A stretch of DNA of 64,000 nt, taken from Planctomycetota bacterium. GTDB taxonomy: Bacteria > Planctomycetota > UBA1135 > GCA-002686595. The first letter of the stretch is position 1. Every line of letters begins with the position of its first letter. The notes beneath the pieces are model-generated. The model searched no databases. It was not told where the DNA came from and saw only the letters and a program-made list of their open reading frames with translations. Location of the stretch: contig PBIX01000085.1 of the NCBI GenBank assembly GCA_002720975.1, forward strand, positions 1 through 64,000, given 5' to 3'. This document shows positions 15,803 through 39,895 of the stretch, in pieces. A program made the translations under genes and the position numbers.

Positions 15803-16804
15803 CTATCGGTCCCGAATGAGCACACCTTGCGGTACACCTGCCAAGGACAGTGCTGGTTCAGCATCTTTCAGCCAGCGACGTCCGTCCGTGGTGTACCCCG
15901 CTGTGGGTTTCAGTCCTGGCTGGAGTCCACCGAAGTAGCTGTTGAAGGCTTTCATTCCCAACTCCCGGCCATATTTGGCGAAGCACGATGCCAGGGCCAC
16001 CGAGAAGGAGCGCTCCTCACAGCGTTCAGCAAAAACCACCCGCATGCGTCGCTCCACCCCGCCGACCTCCTGAGTCAGGACGTATTCGCTCAAGGAGCTG
16101 CACTCCTCCCGCACCTGGAGGCGCGCCGCCGGAAACTGCTTCGAGAGCCAGCGACCGTAGTGACTCCTCCCACCCATTCGATCCACGAAGACCGAGAGGC
16201 TCTCTTCTCCAAACGACTCCCACATGTGCTCAAGCAAGCTGCCAGATACCTGCCACTGGGAGAGGGACTTGTTGCCCGTGGTCTGCCAGGAGTCGTTCAG
16301 TTCTCCAGCGGGGAGTACGCAGCATCCACCGTCCAAGAAATTGACAGCGGATCGGTTCATTTCCCGCGCCAACTTGCCAGAGCGTATGGAGAGAACGCCT
16401 TCATCCACCGCATGCGGAAGAGACTCCGGGAGCTTGCTGTACCAGGGATGGCGGGCCAGGGCGCCACTGGACAATTGAAGGCCTGCTGGGGGCAACTTGA
16501 GAAGCTCGCTCGGAGTTCGCGGTCCACACCCTTCAGCGTCGAGCTGGTCCAAGAACGCCAAGACCGTCAGCTCCAATCGGCGGGCCCCACGCGGGTTGCG
16601 GGAGAAGACGCGTTTAGAGTCAGCAACCACAAGGTGTCCACTGTCCTGGCGAGGGGAGTCCGTCACGACTTCGCTCAACACATCCCACAGATTGACCTCT
16701 CCCCGGGGCACACGAAACGCCGACCAGCCCACGGTCATCGGCCCCAGTAACGGCCCCAGCCCGGCCTCATCGATGCCTGCGATAACCCGAGTAGGGTGGC
16801 TCAT
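15803..16804 (-). CDS. RNase HII-like protein, diverged
   Basis: 333 aa. The N-terminus VIAGIDEAGLGPLLGPMTVG mirrors RNase HII (I-A-G-x-D-E-A-G-R-G-P), with candidate metal ligands D12 and E13. VADSKRVF resembles its DSK motif, VFVDRMGGRSHY could supply a third Asp, and the C-terminal CFAKYGRELGMKAFNSYF and GLKPTAGYTTDGRRW resemble the substrate-binding end. At 333 aa it is longer than the usual 200-250 because of a central insertion (about residues 85-195). The Arg after DEAG is Leu, so catalysis may differ. It starts inside the stop codon of lgt (ATGA overlap), so the two are co-translated. Could be a true RNase H or a related nuclease with altered specificity. Confidence 0.6.
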   Translation of the reverse strand: MSHPTRVIAGIDEAGLGPLLGPMTVGWSAFRVPRGEVNLWDVLSEVVTDSPRQDSGHLVVADSKRVFSRNPRGARRLELTVLAFLDQLDAEGCGPRTPSELLKLPPAGLQLSSGALARHPWYSKLPESLPHAVDEGVLSIRSGKLAREMNRSAVNFLDGGCCVLPAGELNDSWQTTGNKSLSQWQVSGSLLEHMWESFGEESLSVFVDRMGGRSHYGRWLSKQFPAARLQVREECSSLSEYVLTQEVGGVERRMRVVFAERCEERSFSVALASCFAKYGRELGMKAFNSYFGGLQPGLKPTAGYTTDGRRWLKDAEPALSLAGVPQGVLIRDR

Positions 16805-17694
16805 GCCGTCTCGTTGGCCCCAGCCGGGGTTGGTGCAGGGGGCTGAGCGCCAGCGTCCGTGCGGCCACGGTTACGCAACAAGAGTCCGACGCAGATGACG
16901 AACACCACGCACGAAATGAGTTGGGACGTGGAGATGGAGCCATCAAACCAGAGGCCCCGGATCGAATCGCCTCTGAAGTTCTCGATGGTGTAGCGGCTGA
17001 CGGCGTACAGGCTCAGCAGCTGAAGGCTCAACTGGCCCACGTAACGCCGACGACGTAGGAGCCAGTTGCCGATTCCAAACAGTACCAAGCCGTTGATGCT
17101 CATCCAGGGCTGGGTGGCCCAGAGAACCTGGCCAGCATTGTCCGCCCCGAACAGGCTGCCCTCACGGAGGACCTCGGGGATCTGGAGAGTGATGGGGAAG
17201 GGTAGGTGCGCTAGATGCTCGGGAACGATACTCCCGAAGTCGTCTCCCACGAGGAGGCATCCGACTCGGCCGATGGCCAATCCCAAGAACCCGCACAACA
17301 GACCGATGTCCAGACACTGCGTGAACGGCAGCCCATACTTGCGTGTACCAAACCACCCGGCAAGGATCGCGCCAAAGGCTCCGCCGTACATGACCAGTCC
17401 TCCCTCGTGAACGAACAGGACGCGCAGAGGATTGTCCACGAAGCGTTGGCCCACTGCCGAACCCTGGCCTACTTCCACAATCACGTACATGAACCGCGCC
17501 CCCAAGATGACGCCGGCCAAGACCCACATGGGCACGGCGTCCAAGCGGGGATGCCACTCCTGCGGGTTGGTGGTGTAGCGCAGGTTGATCTTCACGAATT
17601 GGTGTGAAGCCGTGATGAACCCCAGCACGACCATCAGGCCGAACGTCGTGATCGGGAAGTCGAAGTAGGGGACCTTGAAGAGGATGGGGTACAT
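16801..17694 (-). CDS. lgt: Prolipoprotein diacylglyceryl transferase
   Basis: 297 aa, seven or so membrane segments. Contains the Lgt landmarks VHEGGLVMYGGAFGAI (catalytic His region) and AIGRVGCLLVGDDFG. The latter departs from the usual GRxGNFxNxExxG: Asn is replaced by Cys and Glu by Asp, a pattern seen in the broader family. The late Arg region ENFRGDSIRG is present. Lgt moves diacylglyceryl from phosphatidylglycerol to the lipobox Cys of pre-lipoproteins at the inner membrane; several lipoproteins in this window would be substrates. Followed by the RNase HII-like gene with a 4-base overlap. Confidence 0.88.
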   Translation of the reverse strand: MYPILFKVPYFDFPITTFGLMVVLGFITASHQFVKINLRYTTNPQEWHPRLDAVPMWVLAGVILGARFMYVIVEVGQGSAVGQRFVDNPLRVLFVHEGGLVMYGGAFGAILAGWFGTRKYGLPFTQCLDIGLLCGFLGLAIGRVGCLLVGDDFGSIVPEHLAHLPFPITLQIPEVLREGSLFGADNAGQVLWATQPWMSINGLVLFGIGNWLLRRRRYVGQLSLQLLSLYAVSRYTIENFRGDSIRGLWFDGSISTSQLISCVVFVICVGLLLRNRGRTDAGAQPPAPTPAGANETA

Positions 17695-17872
17695 GGTGGG
17701 GCTGGACGGAGGGTGCCGGTGGGCGAGGATTGTAGTCCCCTGTGGCCTCAGGTACCCAGAGATCCCTGGCCTAGTACTTCCTTCTCAGAGAGGTTGATGC
17801 TCCTCGCCGGATTGATATCCTTCTCGCCTACCCATCGTGGGCACCTGATCCACGAGAACGTTCCAGTCGTTC

Positions 17873-17888: not shown

Positions 17889-17907
17889 CTCGCCCGAAGG
17901 AAGGGCC

Positions 17908-18795
17908 ATGCGTCACCGCGAGCAGAATCAACCCCGGGTCAAGGTCTACCTCGAAGGACGCTATCGCAAGCTGGTGCGCGATCTGCCGCAGACCGTGTTC
18001 TGGTGTCCCGAATGCAAGGGACATCCCCGGCGCCGCCGCAAGTGCTCCTACTGTGAGGGCTTTGGGAAATTGACCCGCGATTCAGTCCAGGAATTGGTGG
18101 GGTGGGTCTTGGGCAAGGCCTTCGGTACTCGCAAGCACAAGTTTCATGGTGCGGGTCGCGAGGACATGGATGTACGCATGCTCGGCAGCGGGCGCCCCTT
18201 CATCCTGGAGCTGATCAACCCCAAGACCCAGGACGTGGACCTGGCTGAGGCCGAACAGGTGATCAATCAACGCAACGAGGGGCGTATCGAAATCGAGGGC
18301 CTGCACTGGTCTGAGAAGCCTCGTGTGCGAGTCCTCAAGGAGGGCAAACACGCCAAGCGCTACGGAGCCCTGGTCGAGGTCGAGGGTCAGGTGGATCCCC
18401 AGACGATTGCGGACCTTGTGGGCCAGCGCATTCCCCTGGCGCAGCGTACCCCATCCCGCGTGGCCCACCGCCGGGCGGACCTGATCCGCGAGCGCTGGAT
18501 CGAAGTCCAGGAGCTGAAGCCTGGGGACGACGGGTCCTGGGATCTGGTTGTGCTCGCTCAGCATGGCACCTACGTCAAGGAGGCCATCTCCGGAGAGGGC
18601 GAGAAAACGAAGCCCTCATTGGGAGAGTTGCTGGGTGGTCTGACCTGCAAGTGCCTGCAGTTGGACGTGCTCGGTATTTTGGACGAAGAAGGCGAGAATG
18701 AGTGGGTGGCCCCCAGCCGTCCCTTGCCCGTATCCTTCGGAAGCGGCTTGGATGCCGCCGAGGCTCCGGCCTGTTCCGATCAGCCTTCGGACTAG
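17908..18795 (+). CDS. Pus10-type tRNA pseudouridine synthase (short form)
   Basis: 295 aa from the ATG at 17908, preceded at good spacing by GGAAGG. The central motif HGAGREDMDVRMLGSGRPF followed by ELINP is the hallmark of Pus10, the archaeal/eukaryotic synthase for tRNA positions 54/55. D86 of GRED corresponds to the catalytic Asp of the family. Later Pus10 features QRTPSRVAHRRADLIRER and QHGTYVKEAISGEGEKTKPS are also present. Near the N-terminus C33-x2-C36 and C46-x2-C49 should bind zinc. The THUMP-containing N-terminal part of archaeal Pus10 is mostly missing: only about 30 residues precede the zinc motif. In bacteria TruB normally makes pseudouridine 55, so target and role need testing. 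Shares a CTAG end overlap with the convergent dehydratase-like gene. Confidence 0.85.
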   Translation: MRHREQNQPRVKVYLEGRYRKLVRDLPQTVFWCPECKGHPRRRRKCSYCEGFGKLTRDSVQELVGWVLGKAFGTRKHKFHGAGREDMDVRMLGSGRPFILELINPKTQDVDLAEAEQVINQRNEGRIEIEGLHWSEKPRVRVLKEGKHAKRYGALVEVEGQVDPQTIADLVGQRIPLAQRTPSRVAHRRADLIRERWIEVQELKPGDDGSWDLVVLAQHGTYVKEAISGEGEKTKPSLGELLGGLTCKCLQLDVLGILDEEGENEWVAPSRPLPVSFGSGLDAAEAPACSDQPSD

Positions 18796-32140: not shown

Positions 32141-35100
32141 TTAGCCCATGGGCTTGGATCGAACCCGGGGGTAGATGGATCCGTCCGGGGAGGAGGCCGT
32201 GGCGAGAAGCTCTCGGCTGCTCCGCCGCTGGCGGCGGCGCAAGAGGGGGTCGGCAATGAGGGCATTGACCCGATCCATGTGAGTCTTCAGATCGGATATC
32301 AGGCGCTTGCCTTCAGGTTCCCGTCCCATCTCGTTCAGGACGAGCGCACGCGTGGCCACAATGACGATGCGGTCCGGGAGCTCCACACCGCGCTTCATGC
32401 ACTTGAGGCCCATGGAACTGTGTCGGTCGGCTTCCCCTGAGGCAGCCGTCGTTTTCAACTGCCTCTGGACCCGAGCCAGCAGGGCGTGGCTCAAGGCTTG
32501 GAAACGGTGCTGCCCGATCTCTGTGCTGGATTGGGCGACTTGTTCAAGTAGGGGGCCGGCCTCGGGAGAGTTCTGCTCCAGGAGTAAGACGCCGAGATGC
32601 AAGTTGGCTTTCAACTCGGCGGGGTGATTGCCGCTCTCCTGGCAGGACAGGCGCGCTTCACGCAGGGCCATCTCCGCTTCGCGCAGCTGATTGTTCCAGA
32701 GTGACAAGGCGCCATGCAGTTCGTTTACCGTTGCCGTGAGGTGATGATCGCCCAGGTGTTGGGCACCTCGACGAGCGAGGGTGAGGGCTGCCTGGGCACG
32801 CCGATGGCGGCCAGCTACAGAGTAGATGCGAGCCCGGGCAATGTATCCACGAACCAATACCGCACGTAGCTTGGGCTCCCGTGCGTGGGGGCGTACGGTG
32901 GCGATGGCGTGGTTGACGAGGGCCAGGGCCTCCTCGATCCTGTCCTGCAGCAGCGCCAATCGGGCGGAGCAAAGGGTGCTTCTGGCCTGAATGGCTGGCG
33001 TATCACTGAGCTTTGCGGCCCGTCGCGCAAGCTGGCGGGAGGCCTTCAACTCGCCCACCTCGAACTGGGTCTCGGACAGCAGCACCAGAGCTTCCGCCTC
33101 GCGTGGACGGTCATCAGCCTCCTCAAAGAGCATCTGTGCGTTGCGCAGCATCCCGCGCGCCAGACCGAAGCGGCCCGTGTGCATTGCGTGTCTCGCGTGG
33201 AGCACGTAGATGCGTCCCACCCCACCGGGATCTCTCGCCGGGTCAAGGTCCAGTTCAGTCAATTGATCGAGCCACCGCTCCAGGTCTTGGCGGCGCCCCA
33301 ACCTGTGTGCAGCATCAGAGGCGGCCTGCAGCAACTCGCGGCGGAGTGAGGTCGAATCGCCATCGCCCGTCGGCTGCCCCAGCGCCTCGAGCGCCCAGCG
33401 CGCCAGCGTGTGCTCTTGGGAAGCGCGGCCCGCCTTGTTGGCTGCTCGCAGCAAGGAAGGAGCCAGCTCCAGCAGGGAGTCGTACTCGCCGGCAGCATGC
33501 AGGTGAAAGGCCCGTTGAATGCCCAAGCCACCCCGGGGAGACTCTTCCTCAAGCCGCGCCAGGGCCCTGGCGGCCTCGGCGTGGAGACCCCTGCGTCGAT
33601 CCGGGCTCAATGTTCGGTAGATCGTCTCGCGGAGCACGGGCCGAGCGAACCGGTAGCGCGACCCCGAGGGGGTCAGCCATTCACTACGCGCGAACCTACC
33701 CAGGATGGCATCAATCTCAGCGGCGCTGCTCTCGGGGAAAGCCAGCAGTAGGAAATGGCGCTCAATGGTGCCGCCCACCACAGCCAGGCGTTGGAGCCAG
33801 TCCTGCTCGTGGGCGTCGAGGGCCTCGAAGCGCTCGGCAATCAGCTGGCGAATGCCCTTGGAGCGTGGGATTTCAGCGGGGGGCACGAGGAGTTCGAGCC
33901 CCTCCCCCGAGGCGTGCTCGCGGGTTTGCCCCGCCTGCCGCATGGCTCTGAGGATCTCCCGCAGGGCCCCGGGCGATCCTCCACTGCGCTCACAGAGCAC
34001 TTGCGTGAGCCGTTGACGGGGTGCGGAGGGGTGGAACACGGCCTCCACCCAGTCGCCCACGTGATCTTCATCCATGGGACCCAGCCGAATGCGTGGCACG
34101 GGTTCCTGCAGGTCCAGGCGCGTGCGCAACGACTCCAGCGCTGCTGGACAGCTGGGCTCGATCCCCTGGCGCAAGCCGCAGATGAAGGTCAGGGCCGCTC
34201 CTTCAAGACGCTCAGCCACCAGGCTGATGACGCGCAGAGATTCTTCCCCGGCAAAGGTGACGTCATCGAGGAACACGACCAGGGGCCGCCGACGGGCCAA
34301 CTGCAGGAGCCACTCAGCAAGGGCCAGAGCCTCCGTGCTGGGTGCTTGTTCGTTGAACTTCTGGTCCAGGACCAGGATCAGGGTCTCCGCCGTGGACGGA
34401 TCCACCCATTCGTGCAATAGCGCCCGCTCACGCTCTCCTGTGGCCCTGGGACTGGGCAGGTGCAACCATCGGCGCAGGAGTGAACGTACCGGGTGCCCCG
34501 GCCGTCCTGAGCCGAAGGGCGAGCAGCGGCCATAGAGATAGAGCGGTGGATCCTGTCCTGCCCGTTGCTCTGCAGCAAAGTTGCTCACCAGGCGCGTCTT
34601 GCCCGAACCGGGTTCGCCGCTCAGCCAGAGCATGCTGCCCCAAGCTCCTGTTCGGACGTCGTTGTGGAGGGCGCTCAACTGCTCGAGCTCATCCACGCGC
34701 CCGACGAATGGCAGACGGTTGCGTTGTGAGGGTAGCTGCCGACGGGTGAGACCATAGGTGAGCCGCCCCTTCCACCACGTACTGGACTCGCCCTCCTCCA
34801 GAACGGCCCTGAGGGCACCGGCACCCGAACGCTCCTCGGGAGTCGCGCACAGCATAGATGTGAGGGCGGCATCCAGTAGGGGAGAGAGGGTGGGCACCTC
34901 GTCAGAGGCCAGCACTTCTCCGGCAGAGGCCAGCGCGTCCAGCCATGCCGTGGGCTCCTCTTGCACCTGGGCAGCGGGGGGGAATGGGTGTTTCCCGGTG
35001 GCCAACTGGTACAGCACGATCCCCAGGGCAAACACATCGGCCGCAAAGGAAGGGCCCGCGCCACGGATCCGTTCAGGGGCCAGGAAGGGGAGGGTACCGG

Positions 35101-35608
35101 TTTGTGAGCGGGAGGTTCCCTCCCGCTGAGCTCCACCCAGGTCAAGCAACACTGGAGACCCACTCTCGGTCATGCGGACGTTGGCCGGTTTTACGTCTCC
35201 ATGGGCCCACCCTGCTTGGTGCAGCTTGTCCAGAGCAGCCGCCAGTCGGGCACCGATTTGACGCACCTGGGGTTCGGGGAGCGACCCTTGGTCAGTCAGA
35301 ACCTGATCGAGTGCTGGCCCTTCGACTAACTCAAAGAACAGGCGCGGCCCATCATCACAGGTATCCAGGTGGATGAGTTTGGGCAGGCCCTTGCCGGAGA
35401 CCTGCTGCGCCACCTCTGCTTCCCAAAGCAGCGCATCTCGCGTCCCCGGAGCGGCATCTTCATTCCGGGGTTCCTTGAGGGCCAGCAGCGATCCGGCCGC
35501 GAGTCCTGCGACGGACTCGCCTATCTCCACAAGCCAAACACGACCTGTGGATCCTGCACCCAGCTCACGGATGCGCTCAAATGAAAGGCCCCCGGGTTTT
35601 GTGTCCAT
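32141..35608 (-). CDS. Ser/Thr protein kinase fused to AAA ATPase and TPR repeats
   Basis: 1155 aa. Residues 10-270 are a Hanks-type kinase: Gly loop ELGAGSTGRV, K45, catalytic H136-G-D-V-K-P-A-N143, DLG (156-158) in place of DFG, and APERI. Residues about 300-620 are a STAND-like AAA module with Walker A GEPGSGKT (331-338) and Walker B LVVFLDDV. The remaining 500 residues are helical TPR-type repeats. The layout resembles PknK and the kinase-coupled MalT-like regulators, but no DNA-binding domain is visible at the end. Probably a cytoplasmic signalling hub. It starts 13 bases after rbfA and may be read through from the translation-factor operon. Confidence 0.88.
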   Translation of the reverse strand: MDTKPGGLSFERIRELGAGSTGRVWLVEIGESVAGLAAGSLLALKEPRNEDAAPGTRDALLWEAEVAQQVSGKGLPKLIHLDTCDDGPRLFFELVEGPALDQVLTDQGSLPEPQVRQIGARLAAALDKLHQAGWAHGDVKPANVRMTESGSPVLLDLGGAQREGTSRSQTGTLPFLAPERIRGAGPSFAADVFALGIVLYQLATGKHPFPPAAQVQEEPTAWLDALASAGEVLASDEVPTLSPLLDAALTSMLCATPEERSGAGALRAVLEEGESSTWWKGRLTYGLTRRQLPSQRNRLPFVGRVDELEQLSALHNDVRTGAWGSMLWLSGEPGSGKTRLVSNFAAEQRAGQDPPLYLYGRCSPFGSGRPGHPVRSLLRRWLHLPSPRATGERERALLHEWVDPSTAETLILVLDQKFNEQAPSTEALALAEWLLQLARRRPLVVFLDDVTFAGEESLRVISLVAERLEGAALTFICGLRQGIEPSCPAALESLRTRLDLQEPVPRIRLGPMDEDHVGDWVEAVFHPSAPRQRLTQVLCERSGGSPGALREILRAMRQAGQTREHASGEGLELLVPPAEIPRSKGIRQLIAERFEALDAHEQDWLQRLAVVGGTIERHFLLLAFPESSAAEIDAILGRFARSEWLTPSGSRYRFARPVLRETIYRTLSPDRRRGLHAEAARALARLEEESPRGGLGIQRAFHLHAAGEYDSLLELAPSLLRAANKAGRASQEHTLARWALEALGQPTGDGDSTSLRRELLQAASDAAHRLGRRQDLERWLDQLTELDLDPARDPGGVGRIYVLHARHAMHTGRFGLARGMLRNAQMLFEEADDRPREAEALVLLSETQFEVGELKASRQLARRAAKLSDTPAIQARSTLCSARLALLQDRIEEALALVNHAIATVRPHAREPKLRAVLVRGYIARARIYSVAGRHRRAQAALTLARRGAQHLGDHHLTATVNELHGALSLWNNQLREAEMALREARLSCQESGNHPAELKANLHLGVLLLEQNSPEAGPLLEQVAQSSTEIGQHRFQALSHALLARVQRQLKTTAASGEADRHSSMGLKCMKRGVELPDRIVIVATRALVLNEMGREPEGKRLISDLKTHMDRVNALIADPLLRRRQRRSSRELLATASSPDGSIYPRVRSKPMG

Positions 35609-35621
35609 GGGCTAGGCACCC

Positions 35622-36035
35622 TCAGTCTGCGGCGTCCGCCTCATTGGGCGGGCTCTCTGGCCCGTCGTTCGTTGACCGGATCTGGTCGTCTCTGGTCCGC
35701 GCGTCCTGGATGATCTGGTCCATTTGCGCAGCTGCGGCGATGGTCGGGTCGTACTCCCAGCGCAGGGTGGGTGTCGTACGCGTGTGCAGGATGGAGGCCA
35801 CCTGGCGCTGAACGAATCCGCGTGCCTGCTCCAGCATGTGGTTGGTCTTCGAGCACTCGGCATCATCCCCGAGGACGGAGTACCGGATCGTGGCATGAGC
35901 CATGTCACTGGAGAGCTCGACACCCGTGAGGGTCACGAATCCCATGCGCGGGTCGGACACCTCGAACTGCAAGCAGTGGGCGGCGCGCCTGAGGATCTGG
36001 GCCTCGAGCCGGGCGATCGTCTTCTTGCTGGGCAT
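35622..36035 (-). CDS. rbfA: Ribosome-binding factor A
   Basis: 137 aa. KH-like fold with RLEAQILRRAAHCLQFEVSDPR, MGFVTLTGVELSSDMAHATIRYSV and LRWEYDPTIAAAAQMDQII, the usual RbfA progression. It binds the 30S subunit and helps 16S rRNA 5'-end maturation. Lies 32 bases after infB, in the common nusA-infB-rbfA order. The C-terminal 25 residues are acidic and variable. Confidence 0.93.
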   Translation of the reverse strand: MPSKKTIARLEAQILRRAAHCLQFEVSDPRMGFVTLTGVELSSDMAHATIRYSVLGDDAECSKTNHMLEQARGFVQRQVASILHTRTTPTLRWEYDPTIAAAAQMDQIIQDARTRDDQIRSTNDGPESPPNEADAAD

Positions 36036-36067
36036 GATGGCGAGGTCGAGCTCACCGGAGGGTGCGC

Positions 36068-38740
36068 CTAGGCGCGGGATCCCTCAAGCGTGCGCTTGAC
36101 TTCCTTCAGGGTGAAAGCCTCGACGATGTCTCCCTCGTGGATGTCACCGTAGTTCTTGATCACGATGCCGCAATCGAAGCCCTCGCGGACTTCCTTGGCA
36201 TCGTCCGATTCCCGGCGGAGGGACGCCAGGCTGCCGGAGTGCACCACCGTGCCATCGCGCAGGAGGCGGATTGAGCTGTTGCGAGTGATTCGTCCGTCGG
36301 TTACGTGGCTGCCGGCGATGAGGCCAATCTTGGAGGACTTGAACAGGCGTCGGATCTCCACGTGTCCAATGATCTCCTCGTGGTACTCGGGGGAGAGGGC
36401 ACCCTCCATCAGAGCATGCAGGTCGTCGAGCAGCTCGTAGATCACCTCGTAGCGCCGGATCTCCAGGCCCTGGCGTTCTGCCTGCTGGCGGGCCTTGCCG
36501 TTCACGCCCACGTGGAAGGCGACCATCATCGCACCCGACGTTGTGGCCAAATCCACATCACTCTCAGTGATGGGCCCGACGCCAGAGTGCAGCAGCTGCA
36601 CTTCAACTTCTTCGTGCTTGAGCTTCTCGACTTCGTGGCGGATCACTTCGGCCGAGCCCTGCACGTCCGCGCGCACGATCAGGTTGATGGCCTCCACTTC
36701 CTGCACGGGGGAGGAGCCCAGGATGGCGTCCAGGTCCTTGCGGGATCCGCCGCTGGCGGCCAAGGCCACCGCGCGGTTCTTGCGCTCGCGCTCGCCGGCA
36801 ATCTCCTTGGCCTTGGCGAGGGTCTCGATCACGTAGAACGGATCACCCACGCCCGGGAGAGCTGCGAGACCCGTCACCTCAACAGGTACGGCCGGCCCGG
36901 CAGACTGGATGGTCTTGCCTCTGTCGTCGTGCACGGACTTGACCTTGCCGTAGCCCTCGCCCGCCAAGACGATGTCGCCCTGGTTCAAGGTTCCGTCCTG
37001 GACCAGAAGGTGCGCGACGATTCCCCGGCCTTGCTGAATCTCGGCCTCCAGTACCACTCCGGCTGCGGGTCCGGTCGGGTGCGCACGCAGGTCCAGCTCA
37101 GCCTCGGCCATGAGGAAGATGTGCTCCAGCATCTCATCGATGCCCTCGCCGGTTATGGCCGACGTCTCGAACATGGCTGTGGTGCCGCCGTACTGCTCGG
37201 GAATGAGCTCGTGCCCCATGAGCTGTTGGATGGAGGCGTTGGCGTTGAAGCCCGGCTTGTCCATCTTGTTGAGGGCCACCACGATGGGCGTCCCGGCCGC
37301 CTTGGCGTGGTTGATGGCCTCTTCGGTGCTGGGCTTTACGCCGTCGTCACCAGCCACCACGAGGACGACGATGTCCACGGCCTTGGCACCCCGTGCTCGC
37401 ATGGAGGTGAATGCCTGGTGGCCCGGGGTGTCCACGATCGTTAGAGAGTGGCCCTGCGAAGTCTGGACGCGATAAGCACCGATGTGCTGGGTGATGCCTC
37501 CCGACTCGTGGTCGGCGACTTTGGTCTCGCGGATCTTGTCGATCAGGGTCGTCTTGCCGTGGTCCACGTGGCCCAGGAAGGCCACGGTGGGAGAGCGTTT
37601 CTCCAGGCTGTCGTCCTCGATGTCGCTGCGCTTTTGGTGCATCGTGGCCAGATGCTCCTCCTCGGCCGTGATCTCCTGGCGGATGTCCAACTCCACCTCG
37701 AACTCGTGCGCCAGTAGGGCAGCCGTGTCATCGTCCAAGAGGGTGTTCAGGGTGAACATGCCCAGTTTCTGCTCGAGGGCGCGTTTTTGGACGAGAGAGG
37801 ACTTGAGCTTGATGGCTTCCGCCAGCTTCATGATCGTCACCGGAGCGGCGATGGCTACTGTCTCGCCGGCGTGGGGTGACTCGGTGGTGAGCTTGTCGGG
37901 GCCGGCACTCCCTGTGCGGCCGCGTCCCCGGCGTGATCCGCCGCGTCCCCCCGTCTGAGGTCGACCCGAGCGGCGCAGGAAGCGTCCCTGTTCCCGCTGG
38001 CGAAGCTCGGCGGCGGTCAGGTCACCCCGGGGGCCGGCAGCGGCTCGGGCGCCTTTTGCTCCGTGGGTGAACGTCGGGTGAACGTCCGGCGTGAAGTCAT
38101 CTCTCGACTTGAGGCGTCGGGACTCGGGCCGCGCCCGTTCGCTGGCCTGGAACTTGGTGGGGTCGATGAAGCCGACGACCTTGCCCCGCGGGCCGGCACT
38201 CGATTCACCGCCCTCTTCTTCCGGCTCCTGTACGTCATCGGACTCCTGCTCCTCGGCGGCGGCTTCGGCTGCATCGCCCTCTTGCTCTGCAGGGGCTGGC
38301 GAGGGGTCTCCGGTCGCCGGGTCGTCTCCTATCTCTCCGGGTGTGCTCGGAGCAGCCTCGTCTTCGTCCGGCAGACTCTCAGGTGCATCCTCCGCCTCGT
38401 CGGTGGGGCTCACTTCATCTTGGACGCCTTCGGGCTCATCCGTCGGTGCCGGAGGAGTGGGCTCGTCAGGCTCCACCGTCTCCGATTTCTTCTTCTTCGT
38501 CTTGCGCTTGATCTTCAGTCCGCCCACGGACCCGCCTCCCTCAAGCTCCTCTTCAGTCACTGAAGGCGTGATTCCATTGGCTGCCAGAATGCCCTCCGCT
38601 TGCATGAGCTCGAAGGGATCGAGGGAGGACATGTGGCTCTTGGCCTGACTGAATCCACAATCACGCAGTCGGGCCGCCAGGTCCTTGCCCGGCATGCCAT
38701 ACCTCTTGGCCAAGTCGTGGATTCTTACCTTGTCGCTCAC
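36068..38740 (-). CDS. infB: Translation initiation factor IF-2
   Basis: 890 aa. IF2_N-type start (VRIHDLAKRYGMPGKDLAARL), then a long acidic and Arg/Gly-rich linker (about residues 60-290), a second IF2_N-like segment, and the GTPase domain with G1 GHVDHGKT (390-397), G3 DTPGHQAF and G4 NKMDKP. The C-terminal domains carry LVQDGTLNQGDIVLAGEGYG and ISSW-like ends. Delivers fMet-tRNA to the 30S subunit. 42 bases after nusA in the same operon. Confidence 0.96.
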   Translation of the reverse strand: MSDKVRIHDLAKRYGMPGKDLAARLRDCGFSQAKSHMSSLDPFELMQAEGILAANGITPSVTEEELEGGGSVGGLKIKRKTKKKKSETVEPDEPTPPAPTDEPEGVQDEVSPTDEAEDAPESLPDEDEAAPSTPGEIGDDPATGDPSPAPAEQEGDAAEAAAEEQESDDVQEPEEEGGESSAGPRGKVVGFIDPTKFQASERARPESRRLKSRDDFTPDVHPTFTHGAKGARAAAGPRGDLTAAELRQREQGRFLRRSGRPQTGGRGGSRRGRGRTGSAGPDKLTTESPHAGETVAIAAPVTIMKLAEAIKLKSSLVQKRALEQKLGMFTLNTLLDDDTAALLAHEFEVELDIRQEITAEEEHLATMHQKRSDIEDDSLEKRSPTVAFLGHVDHGKTTLIDKIRETKVADHESGGITQHIGAYRVQTSQGHSLTIVDTPGHQAFTSMRARGAKAVDIVVLVVAGDDGVKPSTEEAINHAKAAGTPIVVALNKMDKPGFNANASIQQLMGHELIPEQYGGTTAMFETSAITGEGIDEMLEHIFLMAEAELDLRAHPTGPAAGVVLEAEIQQGRGIVAHLLVQDGTLNQGDIVLAGEGYGKVKSVHDDRGKTIQSAGPAVPVEVTGLAALPGVGDPFYVIETLAKAKEIAGERERKNRAVALAASGGSRKDLDAILGSSPVQEVEAINLIVRADVQGSAEVIRHEVEKLKHEEVEVQLLHSGVGPITESDVDLATTSGAMMVAFHVGVNGKARQQAERQGLEIRRYEVIYELLDDLHALMEGALSPEYHEEIIGHVEIRRLFKSSKIGLIAGSHVTDGRITRNSSIRLLRDGTVVHSGSLASLRRESDDAKEVREGFDCGIVIKNYGDIHEGDIVEAFTLKEVKRTLEGSRA

Positions 38741-38782
38741 GGTGTGCTTTATAGGGGAGGGTCTCTGGTCAGAGAGTCTGGG

Positions 38783-39895
38783 TTACGCTTCGACCTCCCC
38801 GTTGTCCACGGGGGCGGCAGCGTCCGTCATTTCTGGTTCTGCGGTCTCGGCAGTCTCAACCGTCTCGGCTTCTTGAGCGGTCTCCTCGGCAGGGGCGTTC
38901 GCTTCATCAGCGGAATCAACCGGAGGGGAGCCATCCTCCTTGCCGAAGTACTCATCGCGTGTCTTGATGTTGATTTCCCAACCGCACAGGCGGCTGGCGA
39001 GGCGCACGTTCTGGCCGCGTTTTCCAATAGCGAGGGATTGTTCGTCTTCGTCCACCAGAACAGTCGCGGAGTGGGCGGCCTCGTCAGGGTAGATGTTGTC
39101 GATGTGGATCACGGCGGGTTTCAGGCCGTTCATGATGAGAGTCTCGAGGGAGTCACTCCAGCGGATGATGTCGATGCGCTCACCGCGCAACTCGTCAATG
39201 ACCGCCTTGATGCGCGAGCCCCGCACCCCCACGCATGCTCCGATACCGTCGATCTTGGGGTCCGTGGACACCACGGCCATCTTCGTGCGATAGCCGGGCT
39301 CTCGGACGACGCGCCTGATCTCGATGATGTCGTCTGCGATCTCGGGCACTTCCAACTCAAACAGGCGGCGTACCAGGTCGGGATGCGTGCGGGAGACCAG
39401 GATCTTTATGCGACTCCCGTCCTTGCGCACTTCGACTACGATGGCTCGGATGCGATCTCCGGGGGCATACGTCTCACCACGCACCCGGTCGTCCTTGGGT
39501 AGGTGGGCTTCCACCTTGCCGAGGTTGATCACCAGATCATTGCCCTCGTAGCGCTGGACAACGCCGTTGACCAGGCCACCCACGCGCGTCTCGTACTCGT
39601 CAAACAGAACGTCGCGCTCGGCCTCGCGCACTTTCTGGCTGAAGCCCTGCTTGACCGCTTGGGCCGCAATGCGTCCCAGCTCCGAGAGTTCAAACTCGTA
39701 CACCTCTTCATCGTCCTCGATCGTGACCTCGCCGCTCTCGCGATCGATGGTTACCACCAGGTCTTCGTCCAGGCCCAGGCGCTTGCGTACGCCACCGGCC
39801 AAAGCGTCTTCCAGACCGAGGAAGACGACTTCCCGGGGGATGTCTTTTGTTGCGTGGATCAGGTCGATCAAGCGCAGGAGTTCTTGGCCATTCAT
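38783..39895 (-). CDS. nusA: Transcription termination/antitermination factor NusA
   Basis: 370 aa. N-terminal domain (ELLRLIDLIHATKDIPREVVFLGLEDAL), S1 domain (VNGVVQRYEGNDLVINLGKVEAHLP), and KH1/KH2 (ACVGVRGSRIKAVIDELRGERIDII; AIGKRGQNVRLASRL). An acidic Glu/Ala-rich tail replaces the C-terminal repeats of E. coli NusA. First gene of nusA-infB-rbfA. In most bacteria rimP precedes nusA; here the upstream neighbour is a divergent AAA+ gene, so rimP is not in this operon. Confidence 0.95.
   Translation of the reverse strand: MNGQELLRLIDLIHATKDIPREVVFLGLEDALAGGVRKRLGLDEDLVVTIDRESGEVTIEDDEEVYEFELSELGRIAAQAVKQGFSQKVREAERDVLFDEYETRVGGLVNGVVQRYEGNDLVINLGKVEAHLPKDDRVRGETYAPGDRIRAIVVEVRKDGSRIKILVSRTHPDLVRRLFELEVPEIADDIIEIRRVVREPGYRTKMAVVSTDPKIDGIGACVGVRGSRIKAVIDELRGERIDIIRWSDSLETLIMNGLKPAVIHIDNIYPDEAAHSATVLVDEDEQSLAIGKRGQNVRLASRLCGWEINIKTRDEYFGKEDGSPPVDSADEANAPAEETAQEAETVETAETAEPEMTDAAAPVDNGEVEA

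Follow-up and report, generated by a model that had tools for sequence, protein, structure and literature searches.

No tRNA modification is more conserved than pseudouridine at position 55 (Psi55), which is near-universal there. Bacteria make it with the synthase TruB, and Pus10 is described in review as not being bacterial (PMC7912444). A gene for a Pus10-like protein in the 64,000-nucleotide stretch of planctomycetotal DNA analysed here (the window) raises the question of what such an enzyme does in a bacterium, for which an earlier note on this DNA had offered three answers: a second enzyme beside TruB, a replacement for TruB, or an enzyme with another RNA target. The gene, the features that identify its product and the neighbour that bounds its leader are located as follows:

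16801 to 17694, minus strand: lgt, divergent from pus10 and marking the limit of its leader (PF01790, 138 bits)
17896 to 17905, plus strand: purine-rich Shine-Dalgarno stretch of pus10, GAAGGAAGGG, just 5' of the ATG at 17908
17908 to 18795, plus strand: pus10 coding sequence, a short Pus10 of 295 aa (TIGR01213, PF21238, AlphaFold model)
18004 to 18054, plus strand: codons of C33-x2-C36 ... C46-x2-C49, which presumably form a zinc site next to the catalytic domain
18154 to 18171, plus strand: GREDMD catalytic motif, with D86 at 18163-18165

The open reading frame, its strand and its end agree with the earlier note, and a profile search of the bacterium's own genome found the gene in a single copy. 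The note's description of the product as Pus10-like is borne out by profiles and structure, which place the protein inside Pus10 rather than outside it, the latter being an outcome that the note had named as telling against its reading. Against TIGR01213, the curated equivalog model of Pus10 (cut-off 200 bits), the protein scores 255.2 bits and matches profile positions 160-401 of 402; against PF21238, Pus10_C (cut-off 27 bits), it scores 197 bits. An AlphaFold model built from an 83-row alignment (pLDDT 90.8, pTM 0.83) finds its best match among solved structures in human PUS10 (2v9k; TM 0.73, rmsd 2.2 A, E 2.8e-21), with E. coli TruA second and far behind (E 1.3e-08). Apart from this second rank by fold, nothing places the protein in TruA/Pus1, for which it gave no profile match, and a Pfam search found no TruB_N domain in it. 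All 148 homologues counted retain the GRED-D motif, whose residues G83, R84, E85, D86 and D88 are invariant in the 83-row alignment, so the loss of the catalytic Asp among homologues that the note had also envisaged is not seen; D86 is presumed to be the catalytic residue because it lines up with the GRTD motif of TruA. The catalytic domain of the window protein thus belongs to Pus10.

Several trivial origins of the gene were considered and rejected. Contamination or mis-binning does not account for a gene that all but one of the 61 family genomes share, the one-contig G030 and the two-contig G016 among them. Misassembly or a misplaced start as the cause of a truncation is countered by relatives that share the start site and by the RNA leader and promoter that precede it. 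Nor is a phage or plasmid origin indicated, as phage records and viral contigs held no match and the plasmid set yielded one haloarchaeal plasmid. The Pus10 gene of Natronococcus sp. AD-5 plasmid unnamed1 (L064, 1 Mb) has its catalytic motif altered to GQEADD.

The protein is reduced at its N-terminus, and the earlier note was right that the THUMP region is nearly absent: profile positions 1-159 of TIGR01213 are unmatched, and Pfam gives no THUMP match in the window protein, whereas an archaeal Pus10 does match PF22023, Pus10_THUMP_arc. Because the THUMP accessory domain of characterised Pus10 was looked for and not found, the protein is filed as a THUMP-less variant and not as a standard Pus10. 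To our knowledge, no characterised Pus10 is without this accessory domain. From the N-terminus, archaeal sequences have a module that contains two CxxC pairs, then THUMP, a second CxxC/CxxC site (which follows GRYRK) and the catalytic domain; Pus10 in the window's order retains only the last two of these parts. The two CxxC pairs singled out by the earlier note (C33, C36, C46 and C49) are therefore real but belong to this second zinc site, not to the N-terminal module. C36, C46 and C49 are invariant and C33 is kept in at least 90% of the 83-row alignment, and the site as a whole is present in 143 of 148 homologues. The N-terminal module was found in 66 of 67 archaeal and 28 of 28 Bipolaricaulota proteins, the latter carrying the second cysteine site as well, and in none of 53 from the window's phylum, where other families carry mid-length forms that begin at about profile position 66-78 (N-terminal cysteines in 0 of 20). 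Relatives begin at the same place as the window protein, and since the short forms make one clade (support 100/99), the N-terminal loss is old and inherited. The AU test does not reject a single origin for the Pus10 proteins of the window's phylum (p 0.38) and is borderline for one that covers every bacterial Pus10 (p 0.07). An enzyme without THUMP may still be active, because the Pus10 of M. jannaschii acts on a T-arm microhelix (PMC9957541, citing Joardar 2013), and the window enzyme amounts to a natural experiment on the purpose of the THUMP domain.

The choice between the three answers turns on TruB, which is absent from the genome and from the family. In the window's own genome (G000, 90% complete), TruB_N (PF01509) gave no match, with 14 of 14 control genomes positive, and a second profile, which takes in divergent TruB as well as Cbf5-type sequences, likewise brought no hidden divergent TruB to light. 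Over the family, comprising this genome and 60 others, Pus10 occurs in 60 of the 61 genomes and TruB in none, a result that answers the check on truB proposed by the earlier note and favours replacement among its three options. The two genes are also close to mutually exclusive in the phylum. Among 294 genomes, a full Pus10 was counted in 44 and TruB in 147, and a single genome has both; TruB is thus present in 1 of 44 genomes with full Pus10 versus 146 of 250 without (p 7e-14, from a two-by-two count that takes in 293 of the 294 genomes). Related genomes are not independent, and the comparison was for this reason also counted by family, with TruB in 1 of 18 Pus10 families (p 5e-7). The sole sampled genome with both genes (G094) is in 1010 contigs with 3% contamination, and its overlap is possibly the result of mis-binning.

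The gene order of the window bears on the same point through the following features:

32141 to 35608: protein kinase gene of 1155 aa, following nusA-infB-rbfA where no truB stands
35622 to 39895, minus strand: nusA-infB-rbfA (NusA and RbfA Pfam matches, IF-2 at 690 bits, ORF order)

In many bacteria truB stands behind nusA-infB-rbfA. Its absence from that place is mild evidence and not diagnostic, as inspection of the open reading frames of four TruB-positive relatives likewise showed no rbfA-like frame beside truB.

About 103 of the 294 genomes have neither TruB nor Pus10, and the second TruB/Cbf5 profile found nothing in the 60 of these that were re-searched, complete genomes included. Genomes without TruB, Cbf5 and Pus10 include G185, G147, families f46 and f27 and others, some of them complete single contigs. 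In such genomes Psi55 may have been lost, or may be made by an enzyme other than these three. Their existence means that loss of TruB is tolerated in the phylum and does not alone force a replacement; on this reading, Pus10 marks the lineages which kept Psi55. Archaeal Cbf5-type proteins also occur in bacteria of the phylum, scoring 311 bits (G333, L145) and 301 bits (G335, L146) against NF003280 (cut-off 242 bits), with a weaker match of 209 bits in G089 (L147).

A second bacterial lineage repeats the pattern. A scan of named genomes for Pus10 returned archaea and four Candidatus Bipolaricaulota records, and of 100 Bipolaricaulota genomes, one-contig genomes included, 85 have Pus10 and none has TruB. 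This independent repeat of the swap between TruB and Pus10 supports replacement, and in Bipolaricaulota it is phylum-wide and accompanied by TrmY, which methylates Psi54 to m1Psi54 and has been described as restricted to archaea (PMC5372735). TrmY (PF04013) was found in 13 of 14 Bipolaricaulota genomes tested (among them L192-L194, G344, G346, G347, G354, G355 and G362) beside a full-length, archaeal-type Pus10, and the two genes share contig C1 in G354 and G355, as also in G423. Their combination predicts archaeal-type m1Psi54 in a bacterium. As the Bipolaricaulota Pus10 clade is joined to sequences of Methanosarcina and Methanophagales (support 96/92), it was probably acquired separately from the Pus10 of the window's phylum, or from another donor. 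In the literature that could be searched, which takes in few subscription journals, one paper joins Bipolaricaulota with pseudouridine, without mention of TruB, and none joins Pus10 with Planctomycetes or with the loss of TruB there.

Taken with the retained catalytic residues, these distributions make it probable, and in our judgement strongly so, that the gene encodes a reduced Pus10 doing the job of TruB. Such an enzyme would bind the T-arm of tRNA, flip out U55 and isomerise it to pseudouridine by means of the Asp of GRED, so that its predicted product is Psi55. With the N-terminal zinc module and THUMP lost, it would probably recognise little beyond the T-arm and acceptor stem. The neighbouring residue was followed through the enzymes that act on it. 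TrmFO was not found above its cut-off in 26 genomes of the family, the profile giving no more than partial matches, scoring 20-58 bits, in 24 genomes and one contig-end fragment in G008; most of these partial matches, in frames of 600-900 residues, are presumably MnmG. Genomes of the family typically hold one PF05958 protein each, and that of the window's genome is RlmD (289 bits, versus 76 bits for TrmA with its cut-off of 335), leaving this genome without TrmA. TrmY is likewise missing from all 28 Pus10-positive genomes of the window's phylum that were searched. U54 is probably methylated by neither TrmFO nor TrmA and left as U, and since a U54 methylase, TrmY and the N-terminal cysteines are all absent, Psi55 beside an unmodified U54 is predicted. 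In some archaea, however, U54 is methylated by proteins resembling RlmD (PMC7912444), for which reason m5U54 is improbable here rather than strictly excluded.

The leader of the gene contains three further features:

17794 to 17821, plus strand: candidate sigma-70 promoter, TTGATG at 17794-17799, a 16-nt spacer and TATCCT at 17816-17821
17856 to 17872, plus strand: T-arm mimic GAACG-UUCCAGU-CGUUC, a 5-bp stem with a 7-nt loop
17873 to 17888, plus strand: second hairpin GGGGC-CUGACA-GCCCC, which abuts the T-arm mimic

Upstream of the short pus10 genes the pattern GAACG-TTC[C/G]A[G/T]T-CGTTC recurs, and the mimic is found in 38 of 59 family leaders; its strict form (5 bp, TTCNANY) is present in 28 of 55 leaders versus 0.18 expected from dinucleotide shuffles. 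In the aligned stems 98% of cells pair, three of the five pairs have both partners altered in one sequence or another, and the covariation is greater than in any of 500 shuffles. Within the window the exact motif has a single copy, and 400 kb of G016 hold one more, each of them at pus10 (464 kb sampled). The loop fits GUUYRANYC, quoted as the T-loop recognition sequence of TruB (PMC7912444), but position 57 is often C. U54, C56 and A58 do not vary, though these three were fixed by the search pattern; position 55, which was free in it, is U in 35 of 39 matches and C or G in the other four. Leaders of other pus10 genes carry the mimic in 0 of 29 Bipolaricaulota, 1 of 75 archaea and 1 of 38 other members of the window's phylum, none above chance, and no Rfam leader or riboswitch family matched over its gathering score in the 64-kb window. 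A recurring TFxSFR peptide might have pointed to an upstream coding extension; this was rejected, the element lying in all three frames (16, 13 and 10).

In 27 of 38 leaders a stem of at least 5 bp starts 0-3 nt past the mimic, against an average of 14.2 and a highest count of 22 over 200 shuffles, its sequence varying among relatives, and in several leaders the Shine-Dalgarno stretch lies only a few bases past this second hairpin. The promoter candidate scores below the strict consensus of the scanning tool; a CTATCCT-type -10 is nevertheless recognised upstream of the element, by pattern in 30 of 38 relatives and by eye in the remainder, the conserved box being TATCCT or TATGCT with the mimic downstream of it. 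A T-arm whose 3' strand enters a second helix resembles, in permuted order, the way T-arm and acceptor stem lie coaxially in tRNA, and the second hairpin could stack on the mimic like an acceptor stem to give a permuted top half of tRNA. When its tRNA substrate is short, free Pus10 would bind, and perhaps pseudouridylate, the element beside the Shine-Dalgarno sequence and so shut off its own translation through the mRNA mimic. The occurrence of the mimic in these 38 leaders, the covariation of its stem and its lack of any other copy in the sampled 464 kb suggest that Pus10 regulates its own mRNA, and the replacement of U55 in a few leaders makes binding likelier than obligatory modification. 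The full reading, in which an archaeal-type synthase replaced TruB in the family and also governs its own production by way of a tRNA mimic, we regard as evenly balanced between right and wrong. If it is true, this would be an instance of a tRNA-modifying enzyme regulated through imitation of its substrate; a T-arm mimic in such a leader is unreported in the searchable literature, few subscription journals being covered.

Other readings account for parts of these observations. The reduced Pus10 might have moved to another substrate (rRNA, mRNA or a subset of tRNAs) or act as a non-catalytic RNA chaperone in a cell without Psi55. The many genomes of the phylum without TruB and Pus10 imply that Psi55 may be dispensable, the window protein has lost its accessory RNA-binding domain, and human PUS10 has non-catalytic roles (PMC9957541); yet all catalytic residues are kept, the near exclusion with TruB and its repeat in Bipolaricaulota point to the same job, and the leader mimics a T-arm, the known target of Pus10, which together render this reading very unlikely. 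It is less improbable, though still doubtful, that the enzyme makes both Psi54 and Psi55 as the Pus10 of M. jannaschii does. Without TrmFO and TrmA there would be no competitor for U54, but the N-terminal cysteine module, whose cysteines matter for Psi54 in M. jannaschii (PMC9957541, citing Joardar 2013), is absent, and TrmY, which acts on Psi54, does not accompany Pus10 in the 28 genomes of this phylum that were searched.

The leader element could alternatively work at the DNA level, as an operator to which a dedicated transcription factor binds. Its stem, nearly invariant as GAACG/CGTTC, is also an inverted repeat in DNA, and with C or G at loop position 55 in four matches the element cannot in every case be a substrate for Psi55 formation. 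An operator sits less well with the position of the element downstream of the -10 box, with the covarying stem pairs, with an asymmetric spacer that retains the T-loop residues U54, C56, A58 and Y60, with a sequence-variable hairpin directly 3' of the element, and with the want of a second copy in the sampled DNA; we consider it rather unlikely. Imitation of the T-arm in RNA, bound by Pus10, is the reading preferred here.

Compared with known systems, the window enzyme shares with TruB (COG0130) the Psi55 job it is proposed to do and the T-arm substrate; TruB belongs to another pseudouridine synthase family and is absent from the window's genome. Human PUS10 is the top structural match of the model and differs in its large accessory domain and, by alignment, in the absence of the cysteines before the catalytic domain. 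It coexists with TRUB1. The Bipolaricaulota enzyme is likewise found in a bacterial host whose phylum lacks TruB; it is full length with the N-terminal module, reaches best scores of 480-526 bits and has TrmY alongside. Archaeal Pus10 (COG1258, TIGR01213; M. jannaschii, P. furiosus) is alike in its catalytic domain, GRED-D motif, preceding CxxC/CxxC site and fold, and presumably catalyses the same reaction at U55. Unlike it, the window protein has neither the N-terminal CxxC module nor THUMP nor a TrmY partner, is found in a bacterium devoid of TruB and Cbf5, and is encoded behind a leader that carries a T-arm mimic.
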